A DNA stretch of 54,163 nt, taken from IMG/VR virus record IMGVR_UViG_3300047457_001050, positions 1 to 54,163 of that record. One strand, given 5' to 3'. Positions 1,457 through 35,007 of this stretch are shown here, piece by piece (within the stretch, counting starts at the first letter, position 1; each line of letters begins with the position of its first letter). The position numbers and the translations under genes are program-made. The notes beneath the pieces are model-generated. The model was not told the DNA's origin and did not search any database. It was given only the letters and a program-made list of their open reading frames with translations. The stretch comes from a virus.

Positions 1457-2776
1457 ATGGAACATATTTTAAATCAAATTAAAACTTTTATTACAGATAA
1501 ACACGCCAATAAGGAGTGGGTAGCCGGGCGTGATTTTGTAAACTATGCAGGCCCTTATTTTGACCATAATGAATTTGTAGCAGCGGCTGAAAGTTTGCTC
1601 AATGGATGGTTGGTAATGGGCACGAAGTGTCTAAGTTTCGAACGTAAGTTTCCTAAACAATTTGGCAAACAATATGGTATAGTTACCAATTCTGGATCCA
1701 GCAGCAATTTGCTGATGATGGCCAGTTTGACCAGTAAACGTGGGTATAATCTACCCAAAGGAACAAAAGTTCTTATGCCCATTGCAGGGTTTCCAACTAC
1801 ATTAAATCCAACTCTACAGGTAGGTTTCCAGCCAGTCTTTGTAGACATTGAGCTTGATACTTTAAATTTAAATGTATCACAAGTTGAAGAAGTCTTGTTC
1901 AACAACCCAGACATTCGTGTTATTACATTTGCTCATGTATTAGGTAATCCTCCTAACATGGATAAATTAATGGAATTAGTTAAAAAATACGATCTATTAT
2001 TGTTAGAGGATTGCTGTGATGCACTCGGCTCAACTTACAAAGAAAAACCTCTTGGCTCATTTGGTATTATGGCTTCTTGTAGTTTCTATCCTGCTCATCA
2101 CATGACAATGGGTGAAGGAGGATATGTTGCCTGTAACACCTATGAGCAGGAAGTTATTCTTAGGTCACTTAGAGAATGGGGAAGAGGATGCTATTGTGTA
2201 GGTCCAGAAGCCAATAAACTCAAATGCGGAACTTGTGGGAAAAGATTCGACGAATGGATTCCGACCATGCCTGGAGAAATATTTGATCATAAGTATGTCT
2301 ATGATGAGATCGGCTACAACCTAAAACCGATTGAAGTTCAAGGTGCCATGGGCTTAGAGCAGTTAAAGAAACTAGATACTATTCATTCTCTACGTCGTCG
2401 TAATTATAGCTTGTTATTTGACATCTACAAAGATTATGAAGAATTCTTTATCTTACCTAAGGCTACAGAAGGTAGTGATCCTAGTTGGTTTGCTTTTCCA
2501 TTGACTATTAAACAAGGTGCTCCGTTTAGCCGTAATGATATTGTAGATTACCTAGAAGAAAATCTCATTCAAACCAGACCTTACTTTGCAGGTAATATCA
2601 TGCTTCAACCTGCTTATAGTCATATCATGGATCCGGAAATAGCTAAAAAGAATTATCCGATGGCGACTCTGGCCATGACTAACACCTTTTTCCATGGAAC
2701 TAGTCCAGTGATTACACCTGAGCAAATTAGTTATATCGGTGATAAGGTGAGAAGTTTTTTAAGTTTATATATCTAA
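1457..2776 (+). CDS. rfbH: RfbH-type CDP-4-keto-6-deoxyglucose 3-dehydratase (PMP/[2Fe-2S])
   Basis: This 439-residue protein of the DegT/DnrJ/EryC1/StrS fold is specifically of the RfbH/DdhC/AscC (E1) branch. Two features separate it from aminotransferases. The PLP-binding lysine is replaced by histidine (His215, within YPAHHMTMGEGG). The iron-sulfur cysteines are present: Cys187, Cys245 and Cys247 keep the C-x57-C-x-C spacing of E1, with further cysteines at 257 and 260. Family members use pyridoxamine phosphate and one-electron chemistry to remove the C3 hydroxyl of CDP-4-keto-6-deoxyglucose, giving 3,6-dideoxyhexoses. A partner reductase and the CDP-glucose-forming enzymes are not seen in the window. 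It heads the tightly packed sugar operon together with the ThDP enzyme at 4121. Confidence 0.88.
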   Translation: MEHILNQIKTFITDKHANKEWVAGRDFVNYAGPYFDHNEFVAAAESLLNGWLVMGTKCLSFERKFPKQFGKQYGIVTNSGSSSNLLMMASLTSKRGYNLPKGTKVLMPIAGFPTTLNPTLQVGFQPVFVDIELDTLNLNVSQVEEVLFNNPDIRVITFAHVLGNPPNMDKLMELVKKYDLLLLEDCCDALGSTYKEKPLGSFGIMASCSFYPAHHMTMGEGGYVACNTYEQEVILRSLREWGRGCYCVGPEANKLKCGTCGKRFDEWIPTMPGEIFDHKYVYDEIGYNLKPIEVQGAMGLEQLKKLDTIHSLRRRNYSLLFDIYKDYEEFFILPKATEGSDPSWFAFPLTIKQGAPFSRNDIVDYLEENLIQTRPYFAGNIMLQPAYSHIMDPEIAKKNYPMATLAMTNTFFHGTSPVITPEQISYIGDKVRSFLSLYI

Positions 2777-2786
2777 AAGGAATTTT

Positions 2787-3431
2787 ATGAAAGATCTTGT
2801 GTATCTAAATGAACACGGTTGGTATTGGCCAAAAGAAGATGCTCGTGGACAAGGAGGAGCATGGTTTGACCTAGCAGGTGAATTTGCAGAAACACCTGAA
2901 AAGATTGCAGCAGTTGTTAATCAGCATAGAGTAATTGTTCAGGCAGGAGCAAATTGCGGACTTTATGTAAAAAGATTTGCTAGATTGTTTAAACATGTTT
3001 ATACGTTTGAGCCAGATCCTGTTAACTTTTATTGTCTTAACCTCAATGTAACAGAGCCGAATGTTTACAAATATCAGGCAGCATTGGGTTTTCATAGAGA
3101 AAGGATCGCAGTGGGTAATCATATGCCATTCAATGTAGGAGCCAAACATGTAGAGCCAGGTGGAACTATTCCCACACTTAGGATAGATGATCTAGGATTA
3201 AATGAGTGTGATGTAATTCAGTTAGATGTTGAAGGATTTGAACTTCATGCTTTACATGGTGCTGAACAGACAATACGTGAATGTCGTCCTACTATAATAT
3301 TAGAATTTGGATGGGAGCACAGATATGGAGTTACTAAAGAAGACGTAGAGCTTTATTTGAAAGCATTAGATTATCACTTAGAAGGTCCACTGAAGGGTGC
3401 CCAAGCAGATTTAATCTATAGGCCAAATTAA
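2787..3431 (+). CDS. FkbM-family SAM-dependent methyltransferase
   Basis: This 214-residue protein starts at ATG 2787 after AAAGGA. The SAM-binding signature is visible as VQAGANCGLY (motif I, about residues 51-60), then YTFEPDPVNF (acidic motif II) and VIQLDVEGFELHALHGAE, the diagnostic FkbM 'D-x-E-G-x-E' stretch. It ends with PTIILEF, also typical. FkbM proteins O-methylate sugars or polyketides. Placed inside a nucleotide-sugar operon, a hydroxyl of the glycan made here is the likely target. It is soluble and has the normal length for the family's core domain. Confidence 0.85.
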   Translation: MKDLVYLNEHGWYWPKEDARGQGGAWFDLAGEFAETPEKIAAVVNQHRVIVQAGANCGLYVKRFARLFKHVYTFEPDPVNFYCLNLNVTEPNVYKYQAALGFHRERIAVGNHMPFNVGAKHVEPGGTIPTLRIDDLGLNECDVIQLDVEGFELHALHGAEQTIRECRPTIILEFGWEHRYGVTKEDVELYLKALDYHLEGPLKGAQADLIYRPN

Positions 3432-3432
3432 T

Positions 3433-4119
3433 ATGAATAATCATAATACTGTTATTGTTCGTAAGCCTTGGGGATATGAATATCTAGCCTATAAAAATGA
3501 TGTAATGAGTTTATGGCTATTGCATATTAACAAGGGTGAAAAGACTAGTATGCACTGCCATCCAACTAAAACTACTGGACTAATTATTGCAGGTGGTTGT
3601 GCAGAAATTAACTTTATATCAGATAGTAAGATACTTCGTGCTCCAAGTAAGCAAATGATAAGACGTGGATTATTTCATCAAACCTGCGCTCTTACTGATG
3701 TAGTGTTATTAGAAGCAGAAACACCGGTAGATAAAAATGACCTGGTAAGATTACAGGACAACTATGGGAGAACAAATCAAGGCTATGAAAGTCTAGAGTT
3801 TGAACTACCAAAAACTGAAAGTTGTATTTGGATCACTGATCCGGAAAATGATAATGTTGATAGATACGAAGTCGGTGACAGTATCTTATATGTGTTAAAC
3901 GCTACTGACGATGTGCTTGATGAATTCAACGACGATGATCTTGTTATGGTCCTAAAAGGTGGACTGATGAAAGATGTGAACAAGAGAGAGCATGATGTGG
4001 TCATTCCTGGAGATGTTGGGCTAGTAAAGGTAGTAAAAAGAGTAGCTAAGGAAATGGATGGTTTCAGACCGGAAACTGTCTTGATGTTTGTAAAAGAAAT
4101 CAAATATAATCAATGTTAA
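3433..4119 (+). CDS. Cupin-fold protein, sugar-isomerase-like
   Basis: This 228-residue protein begins one base after the previous stop, which implies coupled translation. The N-terminal half is a cupin: KPWGYEYL near residue 11 resembles the start of mannose-6-phosphate isomerase type II and DTDP-sugar cupins, and GEKTSMHCHPTKTTGLIIAGG carries the metal-binding His-x-His of cupin motif 1. A second His (about residue 82, GLFHQ) fits motif 2. The C-terminal half is acidic and unrecognised. By context it may epimerise or isomerise a sugar intermediate or bind a metal. It sits between FkbM and the ThDP enzyme. Confidence 0.6.
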   Translation: MNNHNTVIVRKPWGYEYLAYKNDVMSLWLLHINKGEKTSMHCHPTKTTGLIIAGGCAEINFISDSKILRAPSKQMIRRGLFHQTCALTDVVLLEAETPVDKNDLVRLQDNYGRTNQGYESLEFELPKTESCIWITDPENDNVDRYEVGDSILYVLNATDDVLDEFNDDDLVMVLKGGLMKDVNKREHDVVIPGDVGLVKVVKRVAKEMDGFRPETVLMFVKEIKYNQC

Positions 4120-4120
4120 T

Positions 4121-5914
4121 ATGAGAATATCAGACTATATTGCACAATTTTTTAAAGACAAAGGTGTTGATCTAGCCTTTGCTATAACAGGATCAGGAAG
4201 CATACGCTTGATTGAAAGTTTTGAACAAGCTGGCGTGTCTTATGTTTGCCCACATCAAGAGCAAGCAGGAATTATGTCTTCGTTAGTAAGAATGAGAGCT
4301 TCAGGTAACCCGGCGGTAATGATGGTAACAGGTGGCCCGGGAGCAAGTAATACTCTAATCGGTCTAGCAGATGCACACCTAGATAGTATGCCATTGTTTA
4401 TTCTAGCAGGTCAAGAAAACCTTGAATATGTTCATCCGGCCAACGAGATGCGTGGTAAAGGTGTTCAAGGACTCAACATGGTAGATATTACTAAAACTGT
4501 GACTAAATTCGGTTATTGTTTAACTGATCCTAAAGACATTAAATGGATGTTAGAAAAGGCATACCATCTTGCCTATTCAGGAAGACCAGGTCCTGTTTGG
4601 CTTGAGATTCCTCAAAATCTTCAACATGCTCAAATTAATCTAGATGAGTTAGTAGGGTTCACTCCAGATGCTGAACCTGATGTCGACTTATCAACTGTAG
4701 TTAATTCAGTTATTGATCTAATTAAACAAGCTGAAAGACCTTTACTTTGGATCGGACACGGTGTTAGAATTGCTAATGGAATTGAAGCATTAGAGCGTGT
4801 TCAGACTAAGATTAATATGCCTTCGTTAGTTTCATGGCAGGCAGCAGACATATTATGCGATGATGACTCGAACTTTGTAGGTCGTGCTGGAACATATGGT
4901 CAGAGATTTGCTAATCTAGCTCTACAAAATTGTGATCTTCTAATCACTGTAGGAACAAGATTGGCCTTGCCTCAACGAGGATTTAACGATCTTGCTTTTA
5001 GCAGGGCAAGTAAAAAAGTTATTGTTGATATTGATCCTATCGAGTTAAACAAATATAAGTTTAATGTGGATATTCCAGTATTAGCAGATGCAAGGAAATT
5101 TTTAGAAGCCTTGGATACAGCACTAACTGGAACTATAGACACTAGCTGGACAGCTTGGAGATCTAAAATATCTCATTGGCAGCAAAAGTATCCTATGGCA
5201 GTTGAACCAAAAAATTTGGATGAAGAAGGCATTAATAGCTATTGGTTTATTGAGCTACTAAGTAGATCGTTAGGCACAAATTGTAATATTATAACAGACA
5301 TGGGAACCGCTTTAACATGCACTCATGCTGCTATAAAATTGAAAAAGGGACAAAGATTAATTACTAGCACAGGCCTAGGCGAAATGGGATTCGGTCTTCC
5401 TGGTGCTATTGGTTCTGCACTTTGCTCTGATAAGACTAGACAAACAATTCTTATAGCAGGGGAGGGGAGTTTTATGATGAACCTTCAAGAGCTGCAAACC
5501 ATGATTGAGAACAATTTAAACATTAAAATATTCTTATTGAATAATAATGGATATCTTACAATCAAACACACACATAATGCAATCTATCAGAGTGCAGGTT
5601 CAGCAGGAGCATGTGGTCCTAAATCTGGAGTAACATTCCCTGATTTTAAAAAAATAGCCTCTGCATTTGGTCTTCAACATAGGATAAAAACAAATTCTAG
5701 GAACCTTGAATTCTTTATTAATCAAATTTTGAATACAGATGGACCTATATTTGCAGAAATTAAAATGCCAGAATTTCAAGAGCTAATTCCTAAGAGTGCA
5801 GTTAAGACCAGACCAGACGGCACAATGTATAGTAGTCCTCTAGAAGATCTATATCCTTTCTTAACTAAAGAAGAGCTTGAATCCGAAATGATAATTCCAC
5901 TAATGGAGAACTAG
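4121..5914 (+). CDS. ThDP-dependent acetolactate-synthase-like enzyme (YerE-like candidate)
   Basis: This 597-residue protein has all three domains of the acetohydroxyacid synthase family. The catalytic Glu is Glu47 (PHQEQAG). The Pyr domain has VTGGPGASNTL, the central domain has PLLWIGHGVRI, and the C-terminal PP domain has the ThDP/Mg motif GEGSF...NN at about residues 447-475 (LLNNNGY). Such enzymes decarboxylate a 2-keto acid and transfer the acyl unit. It is not in an ilv context. It shares an operon with an RfbH-type dehydratase, and in Yersinia YerE, a flavoenzyme of this family, adds an acetyl branch to the RfbH-derived 3,6-dideoxy-4-ketohexose. I infer a YerE-like role; a general decarboxylase or synthase remains possible. 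Confidence 0.8.
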   Translation: MRISDYIAQFFKDKGVDLAFAITGSGSIRLIESFEQAGVSYVCPHQEQAGIMSSLVRMRASGNPAVMMVTGGPGASNTLIGLADAHLDSMPLFILAGQENLEYVHPANEMRGKGVQGLNMVDITKTVTKFGYCLTDPKDIKWMLEKAYHLAYSGRPGPVWLEIPQNLQHAQINLDELVGFTPDAEPDVDLSTVVNSVIDLIKQAERPLLWIGHGVRIANGIEALERVQTKINMPSLVSWQAADILCDDDSNFVGRAGTYGQRFANLALQNCDLLITVGTRLALPQRGFNDLAFSRASKKVIVDIDPIELNKYKFNVDIPVLADARKFLEALDTALTGTIDTSWTAWRSKISHWQQKYPMAVEPKNLDEEGINSYWFIELLSRSLGTNCNIITDMGTALTCTHAAIKLKKGQRLITSTGLGEMGFGLPGAIGSALCSDKTRQTILIAGEGSFMMNLQELQTMIENNLNIKIFLLNNNGYLTIKHTHNAIYQSAGSAGACGPKSGVTFPDFKKIASAFGLQHRIKTNSRNLEFFINQILNTDGPIFAEIKMPEFQELIPKSAVKTRPDGTMYSSPLEDLYPFLTKEELESEMIIPLMEN

Positions 5915-5915
5915 G

Positions 5916-6662
5916 ATGACAAAAACAAAATTTGGGTTTTTTGTAAAATGCCCGTCTATGGAAATGATTGAAGCTATGGGCATAGCAGGTTGTGATTTTG
6001 CAGTAGTAGATATGGAGCATACACCTCTTAGTCCTAGAGACTTATATCCTTTACTATTAGCAGCAGAACGTAGAAATTTAGAAATGATTGTACGGATACC
6101 ACAAGGCAGTGAGCCGTACTTTAAATGGTGCAGAGACTTAAATGTCTCTGCAATTCAAGTGCCACATATTCAATCAGCTGCTGATGTTAATGCAGCCGTT
6201 AACTCTACAATGTTTGCACCTGTAGGTAATAGAGGTTTATGCAGATTTGTTCGAGCTAGTAACTTTTCTAGACTCAATAAAGATCAGTATCTCGAATATG
6301 CTAACTCGCATAATAAATTGATCTTGCAGTTAGAAGGAACTGAAGCTGTTAAAAATATCGATGAAATCATTTCGGCTATTCCTAGCAATGTTAGTTTATT
6401 TGTAGGTCCGTATGATCTAAGTCAAAGTATGGGTAAACCTGGTGAAATATGGGATCCAGAAGTTCAAAATGCAATGAATATGATTATAGATAAATGTCAA
6501 ACTGCTAGCATTCCTATCGGAACATTTACTGATACTATAGAAGGCCTACAAAAATGGCGTCAGCGAGGAATAGATTTTATTCAATATGCCTCCGATCTTA
6601 ATTTGTTTATAAATGCAGCAAGATCTTTAATATCATCATCCGGATATCCTATAGGTTACTAA
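5916..6662 (+). CDS. HpcH/HpaI-family aldolase
   Basis: This 248-residue protein begins two bases after the previous stop. Class II pyruvate aldolase features are visible: AGCDFAVVDMEHTPLS (the DxEH active-site element near residues 32-35), IVRIPQG (the substrate Arg), QVPHIQSAADV, LQLEGTEAV (metal-binding Glu) and FVGPYDLSQSMG (metal-binding Asp). The family reversibly cleaves 4-hydroxy-2-keto acids to pyruvate or a similar ketoacid plus an aldehyde. Next to a ThDP enzyme it could supply or consume a 2-keto acid, or build a carbon branch on a sugar. Length is normal. The physiological substrate is not deducible. Confidence 0.85.
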   Translation: MTKTKFGFFVKCPSMEMIEAMGIAGCDFAVVDMEHTPLSPRDLYPLLLAAERRNLEMIVRIPQGSEPYFKWCRDLNVSAIQVPHIQSAADVNAAVNSTMFAPVGNRGLCRFVRASNFSRLNKDQYLEYANSHNKLILQLEGTEAVKNIDEIISAIPSNVSLFVGPYDLSQSMGKPGEIWDPEVQNAMNMIIDKCQTASIPIGTFTDTIEGLQKWRQRGIDFIQYASDLNLFINAARSLISSSGYPIGY

Positions 6663-7613
6663 ATGAGCAAAGTTTTAATTACAGGCGCCAATGGATTCAT
6701 TGGACACTATCTTGTTGACGAATTTATCAAAGATCATCAAGTGGTATGTTTGCTTAGACCGAATACAAAAAATTTGATAAGGCTTGATCCTTATCAAGAT
6801 CGAATAAAAATAATCTATCACGACATAAGAGAGCCAGCAACTCATCTGGCTGATCAGTTGTTTGATACAGAGTTAATACTACATGCAGCAGGCAATGCTA
6901 GTGCTGAAAGCTCCATAAAAGATCCTTTAAGTGTTATCACTGATAATGTTATTGGAACTACAAATCTTTTAAATTTAGCTAGGTTGTTACCTCTAAAGCG
7001 ATTCTTTTATTATAGTGCAGGTGAGGTTTTTGGCCCAGTTAGCCCTAATTACGATTCAAAGGAAACTGACAGATATAATTCAGTCAGTCCTTATGCCGCC
7101 TCAAAAGCCAGCGGGGAGGAAATTTGTATTGCTTATTCAAGCACGTTCCATGTGCCTATTAGCATAACACACATAACGAATACATTTGGTCAACGATCGC
7201 AAAGTAATCGGTTTCCTGTTAGCACAATTAGAAAAGTCTTAGCCGGTGAACCACTGGTTATACATAAAGGACAAGATGGATCTATCAGTGGAAGACGGTG
7301 GTTCCATGCTCAGGATGTTGCTCTACATACACGTTTTATTTTAGATCATCAAAAAACACTTTGTGAAAAATGGAATAGTTCAGGATTAACTTACTACACA
7401 AATTTAGAATTCGCTAATCTTATTGCACTAGCACTAGATAAAGAATTAGTTTATAATTTTGACACTAATATTAGAGTTGGGAATGAACCCAAGTTTTCCC
7501 CAAGTCCTGCCAAATTAGTTGAACACGGCTGGCAGGAGCCGTTAAATATGTTTCAAAGAATACAAGAAACTGTTCATTGGTATACCGAAAATACCGAATG
7601 GTTAGCTTGTTAG
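6663..7613 (+). CDS. NAD-dependent epimerase/dehydratase (extended SDR)
   Basis: The 316-residue protein starts directly on the base after the preceding TAA. The Rossmann motif is ITGANGFIGHY (GxxGxxG, residues 6-16), followed by HAAGNAS. The catalytic Ser is in YYSAGEVFG and the Tyr-x3-Lys is in YAASKASGE. These define an extended short-chain dehydrogenase acting on nucleotide sugars. It could be the reductase that follows a YerE-type branching step or a C4 epimerase. Its stop lies only nine bases before the ATG of the next gene. Confidence 0.82.
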   Translation: MSKVLITGANGFIGHYLVDEFIKDHQVVCLLRPNTKNLIRLDPYQDRIKIIYHDIREPATHLADQLFDTELILHAAGNASAESSIKDPLSVITDNVIGTTNLLNLARLLPLKRFFYYSAGEVFGPVSPNYDSKETDRYNSVSPYAASKASGEEICIAYSSTFHVPISITHITNTFGQRSQSNRFPVSTIRKVLAGEPLVIHKGQDGSISGRRWFHAQDVALHTRFILDHQKTLCEKWNSSGLTYYTNLEFANLIALALDKELVYNFDTNIRVGNEPKFSPSPAKLVEHGWQEPLNMFQRIQETVHWYTENTEWLAC

Positions 7614-7621
7614 GAGATAAA

Positions 7622-8518
7622 ATGACTGTTTATGATTGCACACAATTTTTTCAAGAAAATGATGTATATGAAATTCGATTGAATCAGCATTGGGATTTTG
7701 TCGATAAATTTATTGTTGTAGAAGCTGGAGAAACACACACAGGTAGACCTAAGCCATTAAGATTTGATCATGAAAGATTTGCTCCATATAAAGAGAAATT
7801 ACATTATGTAAGCTTTGACAATTTTCAAGATGCTATTTACAAATATCCTTGGTTATTAGACAGTCATGCAACTCGTAATAGAGATAACACTGATACTGAT
7901 GATTGGATAAGAGATCTGTTTCAATTTAATTGGATTTATAAAACTCTTTTAGAATTAGATGCTAAAGACGACGATGTTGTAATTTTTAGCCCATGTGATG
8001 AAATTCTTAAAAAAGAAACAGTTGACACAGCTATCAGCTACTTCAATGATCCGAACTTTACCCATCCACAAGGCCTTCGACCTATTGTTTTTTGTGATAC
8101 ATTTCTTTATATCTACAAAATAAATCTACAACACAAATTAGACAATGGTGAATATGCTTGTAGCAGTATTACCCAATTTGCTAATTTTAAGAAATACTTA
8201 CCAGGAACATTAAGAGAATTGTATTTTCAAATAAGAACACATCCTAACATTAAAAATGCAGGATGGCACTTTAGTTCAATTGATAATACTAACGGTTATA
8301 TGTTGTTAGAGAAATATCGTAGTTGGGCACATTCTAAAGATGTGTTACCTAATCGTGATAAGACAAAATGGGAATTAGAAACTCCAGAAGAAGCTATAGA
8401 AAGAACGATGCAAGATTTTGGATTTATCTTCAATCCAATTCCAATCACATATGATACTCATCCTAAGTGGGTTGTAGATAATCAAGACAAATTACAAAGT
8501 ATTATCTACAAGGGATAA
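7622..8518 (+). CDS. GT17-like glycosyltransferase
   Basis: I place the start at ATG 7622 because AGGAGAT lies just upstream; the longer frame from 7577 overlaps the previous gene. The 298-residue product resembles family GT17 (beta-1,4-N-acetylglucosaminyltransferase-like): MTVYDCTQFFQENDVYEIR, then VDKFIVVEAGETHTGRPKP, then a GT-A acidic motif in VVIFSPCDEIL. It is cytoplasmic. It is one of three glycosyltransferases in this operon, so the operon probably assembles at least a short oligosaccharide. The acceptor (lipid, virion protein or surface glycan) is unknown. Confidence 0.72.
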   Translation: MTVYDCTQFFQENDVYEIRLNQHWDFVDKFIVVEAGETHTGRPKPLRFDHERFAPYKEKLHYVSFDNFQDAIYKYPWLLDSHATRNRDNTDTDDWIRDLFQFNWIYKTLLELDAKDDDVVIFSPCDEILKKETVDTAISYFNDPNFTHPQGLRPIVFCDTFLYIYKINLQHKLDNGEYACSSITQFANFKKYLPGTLRELYFQIRTHPNIKNAGWHFSSIDNTNGYMLLEKYRSWAHSKDVLPNRDKTKWELETPEEAIERTMQDFGFIFNPIPITYDTHPKWVVDNQDKLQSIIYKG

Positions 8519-8521
8519 TCT

Positions 8522-9463
8522 ATGAAGAAAATTGTCTATGTAACAGGATGTTTAGGGTTTATTGGATATCATGTTACTAAAAAATGTTTAGAAAAAGGTT
8601 GGTATGTTATTGGTGTAGATAAAATGACCTATGCCAGTAATCCCCAATTTTTACCAGAATTAGAATCATCTGATAATTTTAAATTTATTAAGAGCGACAT
8701 AAATGATCTCGATAGACTACTTGACTGTGACTATATTATTAACACTGCTGCCGAGACACATGTTGATAACAGTATTATGTCAAGTGATATCTTCCTTAAA
8801 AGTAACGTAAACGGTGTTCATCATTTACTAAGTTTGATTCAGCAAAAACGTAGATTCATAATGCCGACGTTATTACACTTTAGCACAGACGAAGTTTACG
8901 GTGATATAGAACAAGGGTTTCATGCAGAATCTGATTTATTGAAACCTAGCAATCCTTACAGTGCTACAAAGGCTGCTGCTGATATGTTAGTATTAGCTTG
9001 GGCAAGAACTTTTGACATTCCTTATGTTATCGTAAGACCTACAAACAATTACGGGATAGGGCAATATGTTGAAAAACTTATTCCTAAGAGCATTAAGCAT
9101 CTTACCATAGGTCGTAAAATTGATCTTCATGATAAAGGAACTCCTAGAAGAACATGGCTCCATGTTGACGATACAGCTCGTGCAGTTTTAACCATTATCG
9201 AATCTGGTGTAAAAAATGAAATTTATAATATATCAGGTAACTATGAAGAGTCAAATCTTACTGTAGTTAAGAAGATTTTGAAATTGTATGGAAATATAGG
9301 AAGCTATGAGCAGTATGTTCAAGATCTTAAAAGACCTGGGCAAGATGTTAGATATGCTATTTCCGATGAAAAATTAAAACAGCTAGGTTGGCAACCTCAT
9401 GCTGACTTTGATATTGAATTAGAACGTATAGTAGACTATTACAAAAATAATTTTATTTGGTAA
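8522..9463 (+). CDS. dTDP/CDP-glucose 4,6-dehydratase-like SDR
   Basis: This 313-residue protein has the RmlB-type signature. The NAD motif is VTGCLGFIGYH (residues 6-16), then NTAAETHVDNS. The active-site triad stretch is FSTDEVYGD, where Thr-Asp-Glu are the dehydratase residues, and the Tyr-x3-Lys is in YSATKAAAD. VRPTNNYGIGQ is also typical. It should make a 4-keto-6-deoxy nucleotide sugar, the substrate class used by RfbH at 1457. Whether it prefers dTDP or CDP cannot be told from sequence. It is the last gene of the sugar operon. Confidence 0.85.
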   Translation: MKKIVYVTGCLGFIGYHVTKKCLEKGWYVIGVDKMTYASNPQFLPELESSDNFKFIKSDINDLDRLLDCDYIINTAAETHVDNSIMSSDIFLKSNVNGVHHLLSLIQQKRRFIMPTLLHFSTDEVYGDIEQGFHAESDLLKPSNPYSATKAAADMLVLAWARTFDIPYVIVRPTNNYGIGQYVEKLIPKSIKHLTIGRKIDLHDKGTPRRTWLHVDDTARAVLTIIESGVKNEIYNISGNYEESNLTVVKKILKLYGNIGSYEQYVQDLKRPGQDVRYAISDEKLKQLGWQPHADFDIELERIVDYYKNNFIW

Positions 9464-10675: not shown

Positions 10676-10869
10676 CAATGGGACACCCTTTAATACAAGA
10701 AATCAGCAATATAGAAGCAGCCTATCGTGGTGGGCAACTCAGTCTCGAAGAGCGTAATTATCTTTTACAGGAAATAAAAGAAGTTCGTGCTGCTCAAGAG
10801 TGTGCAGGCAATGAAGAAATGTTCAGGTATATAGTGCAAGCCGTACATATTGCGGCTAGCGTAGTTTGA
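10672..10869 (+). CDS. Conserved-looking small helical protein
   Basis: The start is ATG 10672, overlapping the preceding TGA as ATGA, with GGAGA upstream inside the previous gene; an ATG at 10660 is less well placed. The 65-residue product is helical and charged (LEERNYLLQEIKEVRAAQE) and ends in a short hydrophobic tail (VQAVHIAASVV). Its stop overlaps the desaturase start. Function unknown. Similar helical linkers occur in phage lysis and structural strings, so it is probably real. Confidence 0.55.
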   Translation: MTMGHPLIQEISNIEAAYRGGQLSLEERNYLLQEIKEVRAAQECAGNEEMFRYIVQAVHIAASVV

Positions 10870-11576
10870 TGTGGATGATCGTATGGACACTGATAGCCAC
10901 ACACATAACAATAATTTGCGTGACGCTATATCTACACAGGGGCATGGCACACCGTGGTATCGTGTTTCATCCCCTATTAAGCCACTTTATGAGGTTGTGG
11001 TTATGGCTGACTACTGGTATGGTTACAAAAGAGTGGATGGCAGTTCATCGTGCGCATCATAGATATAGCGACCAGCCAGGCGATCCGCATAGTCCTGTTG
11101 TTTTTGGCCGTTACAATATTCTCTTACGTGGCGTTAGATATTATCGTATGGCTCTTGAGGGAGGGATACTGGCCAAGACCTACGCTCCCGATGCGCCCTC
11201 TGATTGGATAGAACGAAAAATTTATTCCGAACTTCCATGGTTAGGAATTACTCTACTGCTAATTATAAATGTTTTATGTTTTTCATTGTGGGGAGTTTTA
11301 ATATGGTTAGTTCAAATGGCTTGGATACCATTTTGGGCAGCAGGCGTAATCAACGGTGTAGGACACTGGTTAGGATATAGAAATGGACGCACGGAAGATA
11401 ATAGTAGGAACATTTGTCCTTGGGGTATTGTTATTGGTGGAGAGGAGTTGCACAACAACCACCATCTTAACCCAGCGAGTGTTAAATTATCACGCAAATG
11501 GTTTGAAATAGACATAGGCTATATATACTTAAAGATGTTTGAGTTTTTACATTTGGCTAAGATTAGGGAGATATAA
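10869..11576 (+). CDS. Membrane fatty-acid desaturase (acyl-CoA/acyl-lipid type)
   Basis: ATG 10869 shares a base with the upstream TGA. The 235-residue protein has all three di-iron histidine boxes in the right order: HRGMAH (His23, His28), HRAHH (His60-64) and HNNHH (His195-199). There are hydrophobic segments before box 1, around residues 40-52 and at 122-168. This is the delta-9 desaturase layout, shorter than bacterial homologues of about 280-300 residues. It would insert a double bond into host acyl chains in the inner membrane, using ferredoxin or a similar donor. It may serve membrane fluidity or lysis, and may act with the lipid-remodelling genes at 18-19.5 kb. Confidence 0.88.
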   Translation: MWMIVWTLIATHITIICVTLYLHRGMAHRGIVFHPLLSHFMRLWLWLTTGMVTKEWMAVHRAHHRYSDQPGDPHSPVVFGRYNILLRGVRYYRMALEGGILAKTYAPDAPSDWIERKIYSELPWLGITLLLIINVLCFSLWGVLIWLVQMAWIPFWAAGVINGVGHWLGYRNGRTEDNSRNICPWGIVIGGEELHNNHHLNPASVKLSRKWFEIDIGYIYLKMFEFLHLAKIREI

Positions 11577-11577
11577 G

Positions 11578-12585
11578 GTGGCAATAAGAAGAATTGTTAG
11601 TGTTCATTTTAATGAAGATTATGACCAACTCAAAGATGAAATGTTTTATGATTCTGATACTAACACAATCATTATACCAGATGAAGGTGGTCTTAGAAAA
11701 ATCATTTCAGCGCCGTTAGAAGAAACAGTATCAGAGGCTGTTCCTGGTCCTAAAGGTGATCAAGGAGAACCAGGTCCTGCTGGTAGAGATGGAGTTGATG
11801 GACCTCAGGGACCTCAGGGAGAAAAAGGAGAACCTGGTAGAGATGGTATAGATGGAGCACCTGGACCTAAAGGTGATCAAGGAGAACCAGGTCCTGCTGG
11901 TAGAGATGGAGCACCTGGTCCTAAAGGTGAAAAGGGAGACCAAGGTATACAGGGCGTACAAGGTCCTGCTGGTCGAGATGGACTACAAGGACCAAAGGGA
12001 GATTCAGGACAAGATGGAACTCCTGGTCGAGATGGTGTAGGTATCTCTACCGCAACTATTACCAATGGTTTCCTTATTATTACTAAAACAGATGGAACTA
12101 CTGTTAATGCTGGAAGTGTTGCTACCACATCTACAAGTTCAACAACACGATCAAGTGGTCCTGTAATGGTAGGAGGTGCTCCTAATCCATTCGCTCCCGT
12201 TATAGTCTCAGCACCCCCAGGTTACAAGGCGGCTAACATTGATGACGGTGTTGAATTATCATTGGACACATTGGCTGTTCAGTTAGCCCCTAGTGGTAGT
12301 CGTAGTTTACAATTTAGAACAACTAGCGGAACCTTATCAGTAAACATCACAGGACAGATCTACTGGGCCAAAGGTGACTATACAGGAAATTGGAGTGCTA
12401 ATTATTGGAATGGAAACACATTAACTACAGCATGGCTACAACCATTTACATGGAGTTTTCCATGGCAGGGCGACATGGCCATATACAATGTTCAAGATAT
12501 GACCAATCGTAGATTTTATAGAATCACACTAAGTATAGGTGGTGGTTACAAAAAGAATACAATTATTATAGAGAGAATGGTCTAG
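11578..12585 (+). CDS. Collagen-like fibre protein
   Basis: I choose GTG 11578, one base after the desaturase stop, with AGGGAGAT upstream. The 335-residue protein has a 56-residue N-terminal domain that starts AIRRIVSVHFNEDYD. It then has about 33 uninterrupted Gly-X-Y triplets (residues 57-155, rich in GPKGDQGEPGPAGRD blocks), a Ser/Thr-rich linker and a C-terminal beta-rich domain with many Trp and Tyr (WAKGDYTGNWSANYWNGN). The collagen part should form a trimeric stalk. Such proteins are common as phage tail or capsid fibres. The N-terminus would anchor and the C-terminus could bind a receptor or glycan. The repeat DNA is also a recombination-prone tract. Confidence 0.85.
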   Translation: MAIRRIVSVHFNEDYDQLKDEMFYDSDTNTIIIPDEGGLRKIISAPLEETVSEAVPGPKGDQGEPGPAGRDGVDGPQGPQGEKGEPGRDGIDGAPGPKGDQGEPGPAGRDGAPGPKGEKGDQGIQGVQGPAGRDGLQGPKGDSGQDGTPGRDGVGISTATITNGFLIITKTDGTTVNAGSVATTSTSSTTRSSGPVMVGGAPNPFAPVIVSAPPGYKAANIDDGVELSLDTLAVQLAPSGSRSLQFRTTSGTLSVNITGQIYWAKGDYTGNWSANYWNGNTLTTAWLQPFTWSFPWQGDMAIYNVQDMTNRRFYRITLSIGGGYKKNTIIIERMV

Positions 12586-13814
12586 TAACCATAGTTCCCA
12601 GGGTCGTTCTTAAATTTAATTTCATCTAATAACGACTCTCCTTCTATCTTCCAATTGGTAAAATCAGTCTTGTTAATTGTATTCATTAACAGTTGAAGTT
12701 TGTTCTGCGCTGAAGGTTCAAACAGTCCTCTCAATACCCACAACCATAAAAACTGTTGATGTTTTTCACCAATCTTATTATAGTAGTCGCATAATTTTAA
12801 CATAGCAGGCTGACTCTTTCTACGAGCCATAGTGACTAACTGTTCTACAGCATCTGTGATTTCATTCTGACTACTATGAGGATCTTCCATAATTGTAGAA
12901 CTGTATTCCATTTGTGCTTCTGGATTGGTCTTTGCGGCCTGTTTTAAAAATTGTAATCCAAGGCTACGATGAACACCCAACGGTCCTTGTAGCAGTTTAT
13001 ATATTGTCATAGCACGATCGCTGTCTATGCCCTTACAGTATTCACTTAATATAGCAACTACCACATGACGAAGTTCTACAGGCACTAATTCCTTGCCGGA
13101 CATGTCTAATAGTTCATTAAGGCTTGGTCCACATTTTTTTGTTATACGCCACATCAACACACGAGTAGCAGGACCAAATTGTCGATCACGTTTGAGATTT
13201 TGTGCGTCCTGTAGAGATTTACCTACAGCAGGTTTATCATTAACCACACTCTTTATCAGTTCTTCTTTACTGTATTTTACACTTTCTTTATGAACTACAT
13301 TGGGATTCTTTTGAGCACCTTTGATCTTAACAGCATAAATTTTAATAGGGTCTTTGATATTTTTAAATGACTGTGGACCACGCCATTCTATTTCTAAATT
13401 AGATATTTTACCACTTACAGCATCGAAAACTTGGCTGCTAAAGCAAACACCACCGAGGTCAGCAGTGCTTTCTATACGAGCAGCAATGTTTACAGTGTCG
13501 CCCATGAGATTATCACCGTAGGCAAAAACCTCTCCCAGATGTAGTCCAATCCGCCAGCGCATGTCTATGTTTAATGACTGTATTTTATTTTGAATTTCGT
13601 AGGCACATTTTACAGCATCTGTGGCACTGGGAAATTCAGCGAGAACAGCATCTCCTGCTGTGTTAAAAATACGACCATTATATGTTTTAATAGAAGGGTC
13701 AATAATAGACCTACATTGATCTAATTTGCGCAGTGTTCCTTCTTCATCTGCGCCCATCATACGACTATAACCAATTACATCACTACATAATATTGTGGTT
13801 AGTTTTTTGTCCAT
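12582..13814 (-). CDS. Class III nucleotide cyclase with helical C-terminal region
   Basis: The 410-residue soluble protein has an N-terminal class III cyclase domain (1-170). Metal-binding Asp12 (CSDVIGYS) and Asp55 (NTAGDAVLAEF) are present, and Asn109/Arg113 (VNIAARIES) match the transition-state residues. The base-recognition pair is not standard: the usual Lys, four residues before Asp55, is Asn51, and the usual Asp/Thr, seven before Asn109, is Asn102. The product might therefore not be cAMP. Residues 230-400 look like helical repeats. The stop overlaps that of the convergent collagen gene, and AAGGTG precedes the start. It lies behind a second cyclase on the same strand. Confidence 0.85.
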   Translation of the reverse strand: MDKKLTTILCSDVIGYSRMMGADEEGTLRKLDQCRSIIDPSIKTYNGRIFNTAGDAVLAEFPSATDAVKCAYEIQNKIQSLNIDMRWRIGLHLGEVFAYGDNLMGDTVNIAARIESTADLGGVCFSSQVFDAVSGKISNLEIEWRGPQSFKNIKDPIKIYAVKIKGAQKNPNVVHKESVKYSKEELIKSVVNDKPAVGKSLQDAQNLKRDRQFGPATRVLMWRITKKCGPSLNELLDMSGKELVPVELRHVVVAILSEYCKGIDSDRAMTIYKLLQGPLGVHRSLGLQFLKQAAKTNPEAQMEYSSTIMEDPHSSQNEITDAVEQLVTMARRKSQPAMLKLCDYYNKIGEKHQQFLWLWVLRGLFEPSAQNKLQLLMNTINKTDFTNWKIEGESLLDEIKFKNDPGNYGY

Positions 13815-13941
13815 TTAACACCTTATGGGTTTGACTCCGTTTAAAGTTATACCTAGTTTCTGCCATTCGTCTGCGTTTCCTATCACAAAGTAGGGCCAGA
13901 ACCAATGTGTTACAAATATCTTTACATACGAATCTATAAGG

Positions 13942-15996
13942 CTACTTGCTAGTTGCTCTGAATACGCCGTCCCAATCTGATGGTAATCCTGCACTGGCCA
14001 TTTCATGAATGCGTTCGGTCCATAGTTCATAGTAGTGATCCATTTGTCCATCAAATTTTCCTTTAAGATTTTCTACTGCTTTCAGCGCCTTATTCCATTG
14101 TTGAGCACGATAGTAGGCCAACATTTCATCATGGCGTTCTTTATCTGCTAGCCATTGACTGATCTTACCTTCTTCTGGATTATAGAACACCGTATGAATG
14201 GTTACGCCTTCTTTTTTACCCTTCACTGCTATACAATCTAGTTCTAATGTAAAATATTGATTGTCTAGTCTTTGAGCAGTTTCTGGACCTAGCACAATTA
14301 GCACGCCATAGTTCTTGCTTTGTCCTTCTAAGCGGCTGGCCAAATTAACTGCGTCACCCAAACAAGTATAGTCAAAACGTTGCTCACTGCCCATATTGCC
14401 GACGACAACAACCCCAGTGTTAATACCAATACCCATACCAAAAGCAGGTGTTCCTTCCTTTGCGATTTCATCGTTAAACTCCTTGAGATTGCCTAACATT
14501 TCAAGGGCTGCTTTGACACTTTGACGACAATGCCAATTATCATCAATAGGGCTGTTCCAAAATGCCATTTGAGCATCACCGATATATTTGTCTAGTGTGC
14601 CGTGGTTTTCAAGAATACGCTTGGTCATGGCTGTCATATAACGGTTCATTATCTTAGTTAACCCTTGAACATCTTTGCCATAGTGTTCTGATATTGATGT
14701 AAAGCCACGCACATCTGTAAACATAATTGACAGTTCTTTTTCTTCACCGCCCAGTTTAAGTAGGCTAGGATCTTTGATCAGTTTGGCCACAAGATCCGGT
14801 GATAGGTAACTTTGAAATTGTTTGCGTATCTGTTGTTTCTGGAGGAATTCGCTTATAAATTTAACCGTATAAGCATGTAGTGCTACAAGAAGAATACTAA
14901 GGGTAGGCAAAGTAGCATCAATAAGCCACCTATAATTACTATACCCGTACATACTGCCTGCCACACATGAACCAGCAAGAATAATATAAAATCCGATACC
15001 GACATAGACCCACCTTGATAAAAAGATTAAAACGATGCCAAATACAGCAATGGCGCCTAATTCGGCGGCATCTGCCCAGTCGGGTCTCTGTATGTGACTC
15101 TGTGTAGTTAGTGTTCCTAGCACTGTGCCCTGTAAAAAGTGAGGCCATACCTCTCCTTTAGCAGTTGCCACAGGATTAGACAAGCCTGCTGCTGATAATC
15201 CCACAATAACAATCTCACCATTAAATGAATCCGGTAAAGTCATTAAACTATGTTCCTTAGGCGTTGCTGCCCAATCGATCCATATACGACCTAGAGGATC
15301 AGTAGGAATTTTTCCTATTTTTGGAACTCTTAATGCCTCTACACCTATGTCACCTATCTTTACTTGAACTTTAGGATCTTGTGCGGCTACTCTTAGAGTT
15401 TCTAATGCTAGAGCAGGGTGTAATTTACCTTGGCTGGCAATAACTAGAGGCATACGACGGACCACCCCGTCTATCTCAGGAAAGGTGTTTACAACGCCAT
15501 ATCCTGCGGCCTGTCCTGTTATTATGGCCACTGAACTGATTACGCCTGGATACTCTACAACTTTTCCCTGGGGATCTTGGCCAACGACCTGAGTATTAGG
15601 TGGTTGTGTGGCATTACGTTCTTTTGTATGTCCTAATACTGGAAGAACCACAGGGTGCGTTTTAAGATATTGTGCTAGTTCTTTATCTTCTTTAAACCTA
15701 TCTTGCTCAGGCATTAACACGTTAAAGACTACCAAACCTGCGTTTCTTTTGTAAAGTTCTTCAATTATTTCCTTATAGTCTCCTCTAGGAAAAGGCCATT
15801 GACCCATTTTCTCTAGAGTAGCCTCATCAATGTTTACTGTATGAACAGGAACATCTACTCGAGGTTGACTGGTTATAAGTTGATCAAAATACCGTAGTCT
15901 AACAGATTCTACAAAACTTGGATCAAAGAATCTTAATGCTATAACTGCTATAAGTGTGAGCAAGGCCCACCAAGGGTTAAGTATAATCTTTCTCAT
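13942..15996 (-). CDS. CHASE2-domain adenylate cyclase
   Basis: The 684-residue protein has an N-terminal membrane anchor (about 8-24), an extracytoplasmic CHASE2 sensor (about 30-305), three membrane helices (312-375) and a C-terminal class III cyclase. Catalytic residues are intact: metal Asp428 (FTDVRGFTS) and Asp474 (YIGDAQMAFW), adenine-recognising Lys470 with Thr544, and Asn551/Arg555 (VNLASRLEG). CHASE2 senses unknown periplasmic signals in bacteria. In this phage it should produce cAMP inside the host. An AATAAATA late-type promoter sits seven bases before the ATG. Such a full receptor cyclase is unusual in a phage. Confidence 0.92.
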   Translation of the reverse strand: MRKIILNPWWALLTLIAVIALRFFDPSFVESVRLRYFDQLITSQPRVDVPVHTVNIDEATLEKMGQWPFPRGDYKEIIEELYKRNAGLVVFNVLMPEQDRFKEDKELAQYLKTHPVVLPVLGHTKERNATQPPNTQVVGQDPQGKVVEYPGVISSVAIITGQAAGYGVVNTFPEIDGVVRRMPLVIASQGKLHPALALETLRVAAQDPKVQVKIGDIGVEALRVPKIGKIPTDPLGRIWIDWAATPKEHSLMTLPDSFNGEIVIVGLSAAGLSNPVATAKGEVWPHFLQGTVLGTLTTQSHIQRPDWADAAELGAIAVFGIVLIFLSRWVYVGIGFYIILAGSCVAGSMYGYSNYRWLIDATLPTLSILLVALHAYTVKFISEFLQKQQIRKQFQSYLSPDLVAKLIKDPSLLKLGGEEKELSIMFTDVRGFTSISEHYGKDVQGLTKIMNRYMTAMTKRILENHGTLDKYIGDAQMAFWNSPIDDNWHCRQSVKAALEMLGNLKEFNDEIAKEGTPAFGMGIGINTGVVVVGNMGSEQRFDYTCLGDAVNLASRLEGQSKNYGVLIVLGPETAQRLDNQYFTLELDCIAVKGKKEGVTIHTVFYNPEEGKISQWLADKERHDEMLAYYRAQQWNKALKAVENLKGKFDGQMDHYYELWTERIHEMASAGLPSDWDGVFRATSK

Positions 15997-16446: not shown

Positions 16447-17163
16447 ATGGAAATACTATCATTTGAATTCTTATGGGCTTTACTAGCCATCATCTTAATA
16501 GACGTCGTATTAGGTGGTGAAAATGCCCTAGTCATTGCCATGGCTGCTAATAAGTTACCCGAAAATCTAAGAAAGCGAGCCATGATATGGGGAACATTTG
16601 GTGCTGTGGCAGTGAGGTTCGCCTGTGTGGCAGCACTTACATATTTGTTGATGATTCCCGGTCTTAGGTTTGTAGGTGGTCTTATGCTTATATGGATCGC
16701 ATGGCGTCTTACTACAGGCAATGATGATCACAGCGATGTTAAGGCTAGTGATACATTCTGGGGAGCAATGGCAACTATTGTTCTAGCAGATGCTGTGATG
16801 GGACTAGATAATGCGCTAGCCATTGCTGGTGCTGCTAATGGAAACTGGATCCTGATTATATTTGGACTTCTTGTCAGTGTTCCTATTATCTTGTTTGGTA
16901 GCACAATAGTAGCACGTATTATGGAACGTCATCCTGACACAATCTTTATCGGCGCATTCGTGTTATATGCTGTGGCCTTTAAGATGATCGTAGCAGAACC
17001 CTTTGTTGACCAGTTTATTGATCCATTACATGATTGGTCCGAAATGGGACTCCCTTGGGTTCTAGCAGTTGTTTTAACCTGTAAGCAATATTATAGAACA
17101 CGCATAAGGAAATCGAAAAATGAAACCAGTTCTACTTCAGACACTGATAGCAGCACGGAATAA
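16447..17163 (+). CDS. terC: TerC-family integral membrane protein
   Basis: This 238-residue protein has seven or so hydrophobic helices and the two signature acidic motifs of the TerC/YjbE/Alx family: DVVLGGENALVIAM (helix 1) and DAVMGLDNALAIAG (helix 4). These intramembrane acidic residues carry metal ions. Family members export manganese or act in tellurite resistance and metal delivery during secretion. The tail is polar (SKNETSSTSDTDSSTE). It follows the terminator of the HTH gene, with AGGA upstream of ATG. In a phage it might alter host metal balance or serve metalation of exported enzymes such as PhoX; that link is inference. Confidence 0.9.
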   Translation: MEILSFEFLWALLAIILIDVVLGGENALVIAMAANKLPENLRKRAMIWGTFGAVAVRFACVAALTYLLMIPGLRFVGGLMLIWIAWRLTTGNDDHSDVKASDTFWGAMATIVLADAVMGLDNALAIAGAANGNWILIIFGLLVSVPIILFGSTIVARIMERHPDTIFIGAFVLYAVAFKMIVAEPFVDQFIDPLHDWSEMGLPWVLAVVLTCKQYYRTRIRKSKNETSSTSDTDSSTE

Positions 17164-19923: not shown

Positions 19924-19960
19924 ATTATCTGAGTATTTTATTTTTACAGATTTATTACAT
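19924..19960 (-). promoter_or_regulatory. Pho box and -10 for the 19867 gene
   Basis: On the minus strand ATGTAAT (19954-19960), spacer AAAT, CTGTAAA (19943-19949): two 7-base PhoB-type repeats with an 11-base period, matching CTGTCAT-n4-CTGTCAC in layout. GATAAT (19924-19929) follows as a possible -10. It begins at the pstS stop codon. Confidence 0.6.
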
Positions 19961-20970
19961 TAATGTTTGATCTGACTCCAAACACGACTGCGGATATCGG
20001 CCTGTAACTTGTCAGGTAAATGAACATAGTCAAGTTCTGCGCTTAACTTAGCACCGTTCTTAAATGCCCAATCAAAGAATTTAATAACTTCTTGGCTGGC
20101 CTTTTTATCAGCAGGTTCTTTATACATTATAATAAAACTTGCTGTGGTAACAGGCCAAGTATCCTTGCCGCCCTGATTTACAATACTCAAGCCCATTCCT
20201 GGAACTGAGAACCAATCTGCTCCCGCTGCGGCTGCTGCGAAAGTTGCGTCATCAGGGGCAACAAAGTTACCAGCCCGGTTTTGTAGCAACATGTAATTCA
20301 TTAAATTCTTCTTAACATAAGCATATTCAACATAACCTATGCTGCCTTTAATCCTATTTACATTGGCAGCAACACCTTCATTGCCTTTGCCGCCAACTGA
20401 ACTAGTAGCAGGCCATTTTACAGCAGCACCACGGCCCACACGCTTTTCCCACTCTGGGCTAACCACAGTCAAGTAGTCTGTCCAGTTGAATGTGGTTCCT
20501 GATCCATCAGCACGATGAACCACGGTGATATTCATGTCTGGTAACTTTTTACCTGGATTTAATGCTTGTAGTTTAGCATCATTCCATTTGGTAATGTTTC
20601 CCATAAACACTTCTGCCATAACAGGTCCTGTTATGCGAAGTTCACCTGGCTTGAACCCTTCAAGATTAACCACAGGCACTGTGCCACCTATGATAGCAGG
20701 GAATTGAACTTGACCCAATTTGTCAAGGTCTTCTCCTTTTACCGGAGCATCACTTGCTCCAAAGGCTACAGTTTTATTGTTGATTTGACGGATACCACCC
20801 GAACTACCAATGCTTTGATAGTTTAAGGTATTGCCTGTGGCTTTGTTATATGCTTCGGCCCATTTGGCATAGATAGGATATGGAAAAGTAGCACCAGCGC
20901 CGGTTATTTCTGCTGCTTGAACAGCCACAGAGAATAAAGCGGCCGCAGCAGCCATTAAAAATCGTTTCAT
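19960..20970 (-). CDS. pstS: PstS phosphate-binding protein
   Basis: This 336-residue periplasmic protein has a Sec signal peptide with cleavage after AVQA (about residue 19). Phosphate-binding stretches are clear: GAGATFPYPIYAKWAEAY, SIGSSGGIRQ, FGASDAPV and HRADGSGTTFNWTDYL. The length is normal and it is likely functional. PstS delivers phosphate to the host PstCAB transporter; no transporter genes are here, so the phage protein would feed the host's complex. It follows phoX and a Cys-rich peptide in one transcript (AAGGAAAAC before ATG). It reads like betaproteobacterial PstS, and its codon use is more G+C-rich than the sugar operon, which suggests capture from a host. Confidence 0.96.
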   Translation of the reverse strand: MKRFLMAAAAALFSVAVQAAEITGAGATFPYPIYAKWAEAYNKATGNTLNYQSIGSSGGIRQINNKTVAFGASDAPVKGEDLDKLGQVQFPAIIGGTVPVVNLEGFKPGELRITGPVMAEVFMGNITKWNDAKLQALNPGKKLPDMNITVVHRADGSGTTFNWTDYLTVVSPEWEKRVGRGAAVKWPATSSVGGKGNEGVAANVNRIKGSIGYVEYAYVKKNLMNYMLLQNRAGNFVAPDDATFAAAAAGADWFSVPGMGLSIVNQGGKDTWPVTTASFIIMYKEPADKKASQEVIKFFDWAFKNGAKLSAELDYVHLPDKLQADIRSRVWSQIKH

Positions 20971-21004
20971 TTAAGTTTTCCTTTTTAGTTTAATTAGATT
21001 GAGA

Positions 21005-21091
21005 TCAACAACGACAAGTAGTTTTACATTCGCAATAACACATACGAAGTTTTTCACATACCCAACACCAACATTGTTTTAGTTTTGTCAT
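21005..21091 (-). CDS. 28-residue Cys-rich (metallothionein-like) peptide
   Basis: ATG 21091 follows a perfect AAGGAG (minus strand) at optimal spacing, and the frame stops at TGA 21005-21007. Eight of 28 residues are Cys, at 7, 9, 12, 18, 20, 22, 26 and 28, giving CWCWVC, CYCEC and CRC motifs. Basic residues fill the gaps and there is no signal peptide. This resembles a minimal metallothionein. It lies between phoX and pstS in the same transcript, so it should be made under phosphate starvation. A role in binding zinc, iron or copper is inference. Confidence 0.6.
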   Translation of the reverse strand: MTKLKQCWCWVCEKLRMCYCECKTTCRC

Positions 21092-21113
21092 TGTTGATCT
21101 CCTTTGCGTTATT

Positions 21114-29668: not shown

Positions 29669-29677
29669 GGCAACTCC

Positions 29678-30544: not shown

Positions 30545-30561
30545 GTTCGCTCCGTCCTTCA

Positions 30562-31473: not shown

Positions 31474-31474
31474 A

Positions 31475-34658: not shown

Positions 34659-34659
34659 A

Positions 34660-34965: not shown

Positions 34966-34970
34966 AATTA

Positions 34971-34978: not shown

Positions 34979-34981
34979 GTT

Positions 34982-35001: not shown

Positions 35002-35007
35002 TTTTAA

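Follow-up and report, generated by a model that had tools for sequence, protein, structure and literature searches.

An operon at the left end of a virus record, IMG/VR IMGVR_UViG_3300047457_001050 (54,163 bases, a fragment; hereafter the window), appears fairly likely to encode a pathway by which a phage would make a nucleotide-activated 3,6-dideoxyhexose branched at C4. The two central enzymes are a 3-dehydratase of the RfbH type and a thiamine diphosphate (ThDP)-dependent enzyme resembling the carboligase JanthE. The proposal draws on the observed family membership and catalytic residues of both enzymes, their common operon, the selection acting on it, its recurrence in viral contigs, and the genomic association of the ThDP genes with RfbH and with enzymes able to make a donor. 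A preliminary description of this DNA had placed RfbH, the ThDP enzyme, a short-chain dehydrogenase/reductase (SDR), an aldolase and a methyltransferase in one operon between positions 1457 and 7613. All of them are present there on the + strand, in a single run whose intergenic gaps measure 0-10 bases, and their families are confirmed by Pfam and NCBIfam. Two relevant genes have to be added, a cupin (3433-4119) and a second SDR (SDR2, 8522-9463), the latter outside that interval.

The RfbH gene (1457-2776, + strand) encodes a protein of the RfbH/E1 type, that is, a predicted pyridoxamine phosphate- and [2Fe-2S]-dependent nucleoside diphosphate (NDP)-4-keto-6-deoxyglucose 3-dehydratase. It scores 438.4 bits against the curated model NF011936 'RfbH' (cut-off 423), and its best match in the PDB is E1 of Yersinia pseudotuberculosis (3bcx). 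The alignment to E1 bears out the intact Fe-S cysteines and the Lys-to-His change noted in the preliminary description: the cysteines at E1 positions 193, 251, 253 and 261, as well as the His at position 220, where the lysine of pyridoxal phosphate enzymes is located, are kept in the window protein and in all sampled viral RfbH sequences. The loop ahead of the last Fe-S cysteine is about 5 residues longer than in E1. At the far end of the operon SDR2 (8522-9463, + strand), assigned as an RmlB-like NDP-glucose 4,6-dehydratase through TIGR01181 and PDB 2hun (256 bits), keeps the catalytic STDEVYG (Thr-Asp-Glu) and YxxxK (YSATK) motifs.

The ThDP enzyme (4121-5914, + strand) finds its best PDB match by sequence in JanthE of Janthinobacterium sp. 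HH01 (8rph, 426 bits; further entries 8rpi and 8rpj), ahead of E. coli acetohydroxyacid synthase (AHAS) I at 233 bits and of 5ahk at 207. The last is a P. protegens enzyme which we take to be PpYerE and which was judged by score only. In an IQ-TREE phylogeny, calculated without the sequences of Yersinia YerE, PpYerE (5ahk) and ErwE, the enzymes of the window and of viral contig L001 fall in an 11-member clade with JanthE (support 100/99), and FastTree agrees. The AlphaFold2 model (mean predicted local distance difference test (pLDDT) score of 86.8) matches the fold of JanthE best (Foldseek E 1.8e-55), with a VIA Z of 46.6 and 2.5 Å over 588 residues; the fold by itself does not settle the choice between JanthE and AHAS, because AHAS follows closely at Z 43.9, but the tree does. 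Of the residues important for catalysis in JanthE, V121, Y268, P293, Y297 and K567 (PMC12188165), four out of five are kept in the window (V115, Y259, P284 and K558), Y297 being replaced by F288. Sequence, tree and predicted fold together assign the protein to the JanthE-like (YerE-like) carboligases, and it probably contains flavin adenine dinucleotide. The preliminary description had proposed kinship with YerE and had regarded a grouping with unrelated decarboxylases as the contrary outcome; it is the opposite of the latter that was found. The kinship itself holds at the level of the YerE-like enzymes, JanthE among them, but the closest analogues are JanthE and ErwE, and the match to 5ahk is distant. 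YerE-like enzymes are the sole ThDP enzymes of the decarboxylase superfamily known to couple 2-oxoacids to isolated ketones (PMC12247030). JanthE has a broad range: its acceptors include ketones, and it can use 4-hydroxy-2-oxovalerate as donor, as demonstrated with benzaldehyde (PMC12188165, PMC12247030); its physiological substrates are called unidentified by its authors (PMC12188165).

The arrangement recurs beyond the window: RfbH is present in each of the 33 viral contigs in which a ThDP enzyme of this kind occurs. In L001 the same genes are found in the same order, and the comparison with the window gives ratios of nonsynonymous to synonymous substitution (dN/dS) of 0.004-0.076 for eight genes from GT34 to GT17 (0.008 for the GT34-like gene), which therefore have been under strong purifying selection. 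Nucleotide identity between the two contigs is 0.83-0.98 over most of the operon and drops, over the 3' half of the ThDP gene (5057-5857), to 0.71-0.83, a divergence that resembles the outcome of allele exchange; such a mosaic fits an exchange of carboligases. In a first group of viral contigs (L002-L022) the ThDP gene always comes directly after RfbH; where the contig continues, PanB and an SDR come next, often together with a TagD-like cytidylyltransferase. In a second group (L025-L042) RfbH is 59-83% identical to that of the window and is mostly accompanied by SDR2 (49-72%, with 56-72% in the majority of contigs) and in many cases by a ThDP enzyme (29-37%). We refer to these groups as marine and freshwater, respectively, as labels of convenience not drawn from sample data.

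The window itself has phage matches for a tail spike, a virion structural protein, a baseplate hub and an exonuclease. Its phage-type ribonucleotide reductase is 54-61% identical to those of the nearest GenBank phages, the best being Xanthomonas phage X1 (61%); one virion structural protein of the window has no match among GenBank phages. We regard the window as a fragment because it gave no profile match for terminase (phrog_2) or for the T4-type capsid (Gp23), both of which are present in a few relatives. One relative with a terminase, G018, shares with the window RfbH (83%), SDR2 (68%) and a TerC-like gene (63%). With the 214-kb viral record G010 the window has RfbH (80%) and SDR2 (70%) in common and few other genes, at most 61% alike, and the core therefore appears to move between dissimilar phages. 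The preliminary description knew of no phage example of this pathway. Regarding the ThDP enzyme this stands for GenBank phages, where no JanthE-like gene was found and the best matches are about 30% identical, AHAS-like and in several cases located in bacterial contigs filed as phage. It does not extend to RfbH, which is carried by isolated Synechococcus phages and is annotated as such in one of them, nor to uncultured viruses, many contigs of which carry the RfbH and ThDP pair. In the literature nothing specific turned up on phage branched sugars or on RfbH as a phage auxiliary gene.

The neighbourhoods of the ThDP genes point to the nature of the donor. The cellular loci considered were the best 80 from a genome scan using an alignment of the viral enzymes and JanthE. 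In 49 of these 80, and in all 33 viral loci, the ThDP gene has RfbH within 10 kb, and 11 of 20 genomes examined among those without a nearby RfbH have one above cut-off elsewhere. When the neighbours within 4.5 kb were clustered, a DRE-TIM aldolase family (26/80 loci) ranked behind SDRs, RfbH and glycosyltransferases. An enzyme able to make a 4-hydroxy-2-oxoacid was found within 4.5 kb at 46 of the 80 cellular loci versus 1 in a farther zone (near and far spans of 656 and 646 kb), and at 28 of the 33 viral loci, several of which are near-duplicates, versus 0 (279 and 243 kb). The viral partners are PanB (21), NeuB-like (3) and HpcH-type (3) enzymes and the HpcH/HpaI aldolase of L001, the window being one more; their reactions differ, but each makes or by its mechanism could make a hydroxylated 2-oxoacid. 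Within the JanthE clade an acetaldehyde dehydrogenase and an aldolase stand beside RfbH and the ThDP gene (L054, L059, L061, L063, L074 and L126). The pairs tested pass the cut-offs of TIGR03215 (acetylating acetaldehyde dehydrogenase) and TIGR03217 (4-hydroxy-2-oxovalerate aldolase), and RfbF in L063 and RfbG in L054 pass theirs. Other loci carry NeuB-like or HpcH/HpaI-type enzymes in place of these.

In the window the gene directly 3' of the ThDP gene encodes an HpcH/HpaI class II pyruvate aldolase (5916-6662, + strand; PF03328, 112 bits, cut-off 25). Its closest PDB families are the sugar-acid and HpaI aldolases, and the metal-site Glu and Asp and the catalytic His and Arg align to those of 4mf4 and 2vws, as judged by eye. 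A search of the other viral contigs found this aldolase in L001 only; in L053, the closest cellular relative, the same cupin-ThDP-HpcH order is kept with identities of 38-39, 43 and 44%. We read the window aldolase as the donor supplier because such ThDP genes recurrently adjoin enzymes making hydroxylated 2-oxoacids, and it would probably provide a 4-hydroxy-2-oxoacid. Alternatively, the same pathway could run on plain pyruvate towards a yersiniose A-like product, with the aldolase serving otherwise, for instance in forming pyruvate from sugar acids. JanthE and YpYerE both accept pyruvate (PMC12247030), RfbH is found in the same operon, and 34 of the 80 cellular ThDP loci have no recognised donor enzyme nearby. 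We nevertheless consider this variant unlikely in view of the position of the aldolase gene and of the 46 cellular and 28 viral loci in which that pairing or an equivalent recurs. The adjacent aldolase indicates a hydroxylated 2-oxoacid rather than pyruvate, and yersiniose A, the product put forward in the preliminary description, is therefore not a likely one.

The acceptor may be approached through the cupin (3433-4119, + strand). Its relatives adjoin the ThDP gene in L053, L062 and L070; in L055, L056, L057, L067 and L086 they form the N-terminal part of a fusion with the ThDP enzyme. Such fusions come from Omnitrophota, Nitrospinaceae, Elusimicrobia, Pacearchaeota and Chloroflexi, and DJ-1/PfpI and HAD genes stand beside some of them. 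Sequence searches against the PDB gave only weak matches, and the model (pLDDT 84) has a generic sugar-isomerase-like cupin fold, with a first domain resembling the cupins of CapF, KdgF and phosphomannose isomerase (VIA Z about 13.9 over 97-105 residues). It is likely that the cupin acts with the ThDP enzyme. This linkage leads to a second alternative, in which the operon makes two sugars, one through a cupin-ThDP-HpcH-SDR1 block and the other through SDR2 and RfbH, the ThDP enzyme branching a ketosugar other than the RfbH product. Nothing argues more strongly for the possibility of a different ketosugar as acceptor than the scarcity of RfbH in cupin-linked genomes: L053 combines the block with a genome in which no RfbH reaches the cut-off, and the same absence is seen in the cupin-linked L055, L056, L067, L070 and L109. 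On the other hand, RfbH is in the cluster in the other cellular loci of the JanthE clade (L054, L059, L061, L063, L064, L074 and L126) and in every viral ThDP locus, and in the window the block sits between RfbH and SDR2 in one operon. On this evidence we regard two separate sugars as rather improbable, somewhat more so than the use of pyruvate.

The single pathway that we favour is weakened by the lack of RfbH above cut-off in L053, in spite of its conserved gene order, and in most other cupin-linked genomes, and by several further points. The ThDP enzyme of the window shares only 36-43% identity with its cellular relatives, lies on a long branch (1.28) and has the ThDP motif GEG for GDG, where JanthE has CDG; as GEG is common to the window and L001, a sequencing error is unlikely. 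The donor families were picked from the neighbourhoods of these same ThDP genes, and enzymes of the NeuB and HpcH types are common in sugar clusters generally. SDR2 scores 312.3 bits with TIGR01181, the curated deoxythymidine diphosphate (dTDP)-glucose 4,6-dehydratase model, under its cut-off of 365.1. Neither RfbF, RfbG nor an E3 reductase was recognised by Pfam or NCBIfam in the operon, the left end of which is cut, and the FkbM methyltransferase, the cupin and SDR1 have at most a conjectural place in the scheme. A host-type acetolactate synthase aiding branched-chain amino acid synthesis, unconnected to RfbH, would agree with the top-scoring NCBIfam models of the ThDP enzyme, but this housekeeping reading is highly improbable and was rejected on the basis of the cut-offs (328.8 bits versus 538.35 for TIGR00118, and below all AHAS equivalog cut-offs shown) and by the tree (AHAS controls in a separate clade, 100/100), the JanthE pocket residues being present and the operon containing neither a gene for a regulatory subunit nor another ilv gene.

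The remaining genes of the operon are all on the + strand. The first open reading frame (ORF; 3-758), truncated where the contig begins, is glycosyltransferase-like by position only, without any Pfam or NCBIfam match, and has a 32% similar ORF in viral locus L030. It is followed by a GT34-like glycosyltransferase (767-1453; PF05637, 65 bits, cut-off 23). An FkbM-family methyltransferase (2787-3431; TIGR01444, 68.6 bits, cut-off 37.7; PF05050), which probably O-methylates the sugar, lies between RfbH and the cupin. SDR1 (6663-7613) is an extended SDR (PF01370, 129 bits) scoring 145 bits with TIGR01181 (cut-off 365). It has SAGEVFG in place of STDEVYG, so that the Thr-Asp of 4,6-dehydratases is gone, and it keeps YxxxK; we propose that it is a reductase or epimerase acting after branching. 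The run continues past 7613 with a GT17-like glycosyltransferase (7577-8518; PF04724, 52 bits, cut-off 26), whose real start is probably at 7622 or later and which has a 43% relative adjoining RfbH in L030, and extends to SDR2.

We propose that SDR2 turns host NDP-glucose into NDP-4-keto-6-deoxyglucose, from which RfbH, with a host electron donor, would strip the 3-hydroxyl to give NDP-4-keto-3,6-dideoxyglucose. The aldolase would join pyruvate and a small aldehyde into a 4-hydroxy-2-oxoacid; the JanthE-like enzyme would decarboxylate this donor and add the hydroxyacyl unit to the C4 ketone, leading to a tertiary alcohol. SDR1 may then reduce or epimerise the branched product and the FkbM enzyme may methylate it, prior to transfer by the GT34 and GT17 enzymes, to a virion protein more likely than to host O-antigen. 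Every chemical step, together with the donor, the nucleotide, the order of events after branching and the target, is inferred. As regards the nucleotide carrier, no RfbF (TIGR02623) above cut-off was found in 29 viral records, and the phage dehydratase is of the dTDP type. The options are host cytidine diphosphate (CDP)-glucose, with an SDR2 changed in its nucleotide, a dTDP-sugar pathway, or supply of the rest by genes beyond the left contig end. On that side the window stops, and L001 begins about 110 bases further in. TagD-like cytidylyltransferases (PF01467) are present beside the PanB modules of the marine contigs and at other sites in some records, with none in the window.

Regarding the target, the genes recognised in the operon by Pfam or NCBIfam include no flippase, polymerase or Gtr-type gene, and this favours a target in the cytosol, for example a tail fibre. 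A collagen-repeat tail-fibre-like protein encoded downstream of the operon (11539-12585, + strand; PHROG 5073 tail fiber, 105 bits) is a possible glycosylation target, and in L041 virion and tail-fibre genes come after the cassette. We lean slightly towards the virion as the destination of the sugar, the host surface being a less probable one. For similar cassettes, the authors of PMC7029224 prefer modification of the host O-chain.

The two halves of the pathway seem to have different histories. In the RfbH tree, 25 viral sequences form one side of a branch supported at 100/100 and 33 cellular sequences the other. The cellular sample includes the best of 398 Pseudomonadota genomes, the closest being 44% identical to the window; the viral sample is biased, its members having been collected because they resemble the window RfbH or are linked to its ThDP gene. 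The tree of the ThDP enzymes requires six changes between virus and cell to accommodate the viral ones, forced by starred branches and also found in the bootstraps. Within these samples, the core would seem to have stayed with phages, and the carboligases to have been exchanged with cells several times. A broader scheme, which we offer tentatively and with slightly less than even confidence, is that aquatic phages hold an old SDR2 and RfbH core into which carboligase modules, each with its donor enzyme (HpcH/HpaI, PanB or NeuB-like), have been plugged repeatedly, giving lineage-specific branched sugars for the virion or the host surface.

Among the known systems, the clusters of JanthE relatives (Duganella, Rugosibacter, Mucilaginibacter, Pedobacter and Akkermansiaceae) are the nearest to the window, with RfbH in all of them. 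They are cellular and contain RfbF or RfbG where tested, whereas the phage has an RmlB-like dehydratase, and six of the seven JanthE-type loci combine a 4-hydroxy-2-oxovalerate-type aldolase with an acetaldehyde dehydrogenase where the phage has an HpcH/HpaI aldolase. The pathways to yersiniose A (RfbH/E1, YerE and a reductase) and erwiniose (ErwE) likewise consist of an RfbH-type deoxygenation followed by ThDP-dependent branching at C4. YerE prefers pyruvate, which it adds onto CDP-4-keto-3,6-dideoxyglucose, and ErwE refuses pyruvate and prefers 4-hydroxy-2-oxoacids, as proposed here for the phage (PMC12247030). The hypervariable-region cassettes of cyano- and pelagimyophages also place deoxysugar and glycosyltransferase genes beside tail fibres, as in L041, and the parts of PMC7029224 at our disposal describe no carboligase or branched sugar in them. 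Synechococcus phages S-H68 and RN05-S carry a cluster with RfbH (42%), a 4,6-dehydratase, a cytidylyltransferase-like gene, FkbM and GT17 genes; unlike the window, they have no ThDP carboligase within the stretch of the cluster covered. Higher-carbon branched sugars made by ThDP carboligases have been described from cell envelopes, and a 2025 review names viruses only as a possible future source (PMC12247030). The phage-borne variant of the pathway appears to be new, and in comparison with the preliminary description the predicted product is corrected and the pattern is broader.

Elsewhere in the window several genes deserve mention. A curli-type operon on the - strand (26670-31948) comprises genes for CsgF and CsgG, for a curlin-repeat and a FecR protein, and for a secreted protein of 615 aa in which curlin-like repeats are seen by eye. 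Among phages, pelagimyophages and Melnitz are known to carry csgGF but reportedly lack csgA and csgB (PMC7029224, PMC9004378); the window operon holds candidate fibre subunits, and its CsgG is 44-49% identical to theirs. Also on the - strand, a heme oxygenase (PF01126) and then ClpS-, Hsp20- and DnaK-like genes, assigned by eye, lie at 34101-37409, the ClpS-Hsp20 pair being adjacent in G010 as well (38-39% identity), and a CHASE2-guanylate cyclase protein with a second cyclase-like protein (by eye), unusual for a phage record, at 12582-15996. Host-like metabolic genes for a fatty acid desaturase, a TerC-like protein, a PstS-like phosphate-binding protein and a PhoX alkaline phosphatase are located at 10866-11576, 16447-17163 and 19960-23321; the TerC-like protein, recognised by eye, has a 63% relative in L035.

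If the proposed pathway, which recurs in many aquatic viral contigs, is correct, phages would help to make and spread a rare sugar chemistry, and enzymologists would gain a set of carboligases with predictable donors. The rule that a carboligase lies beside the enzyme making its 2-oxoacid also offers a guess at the physiological donor of JanthE, namely 4-hydroxy-2-oxovalerate. For the phages themselves, such sugars would bear on the escape from receptor competition or from host recognition.

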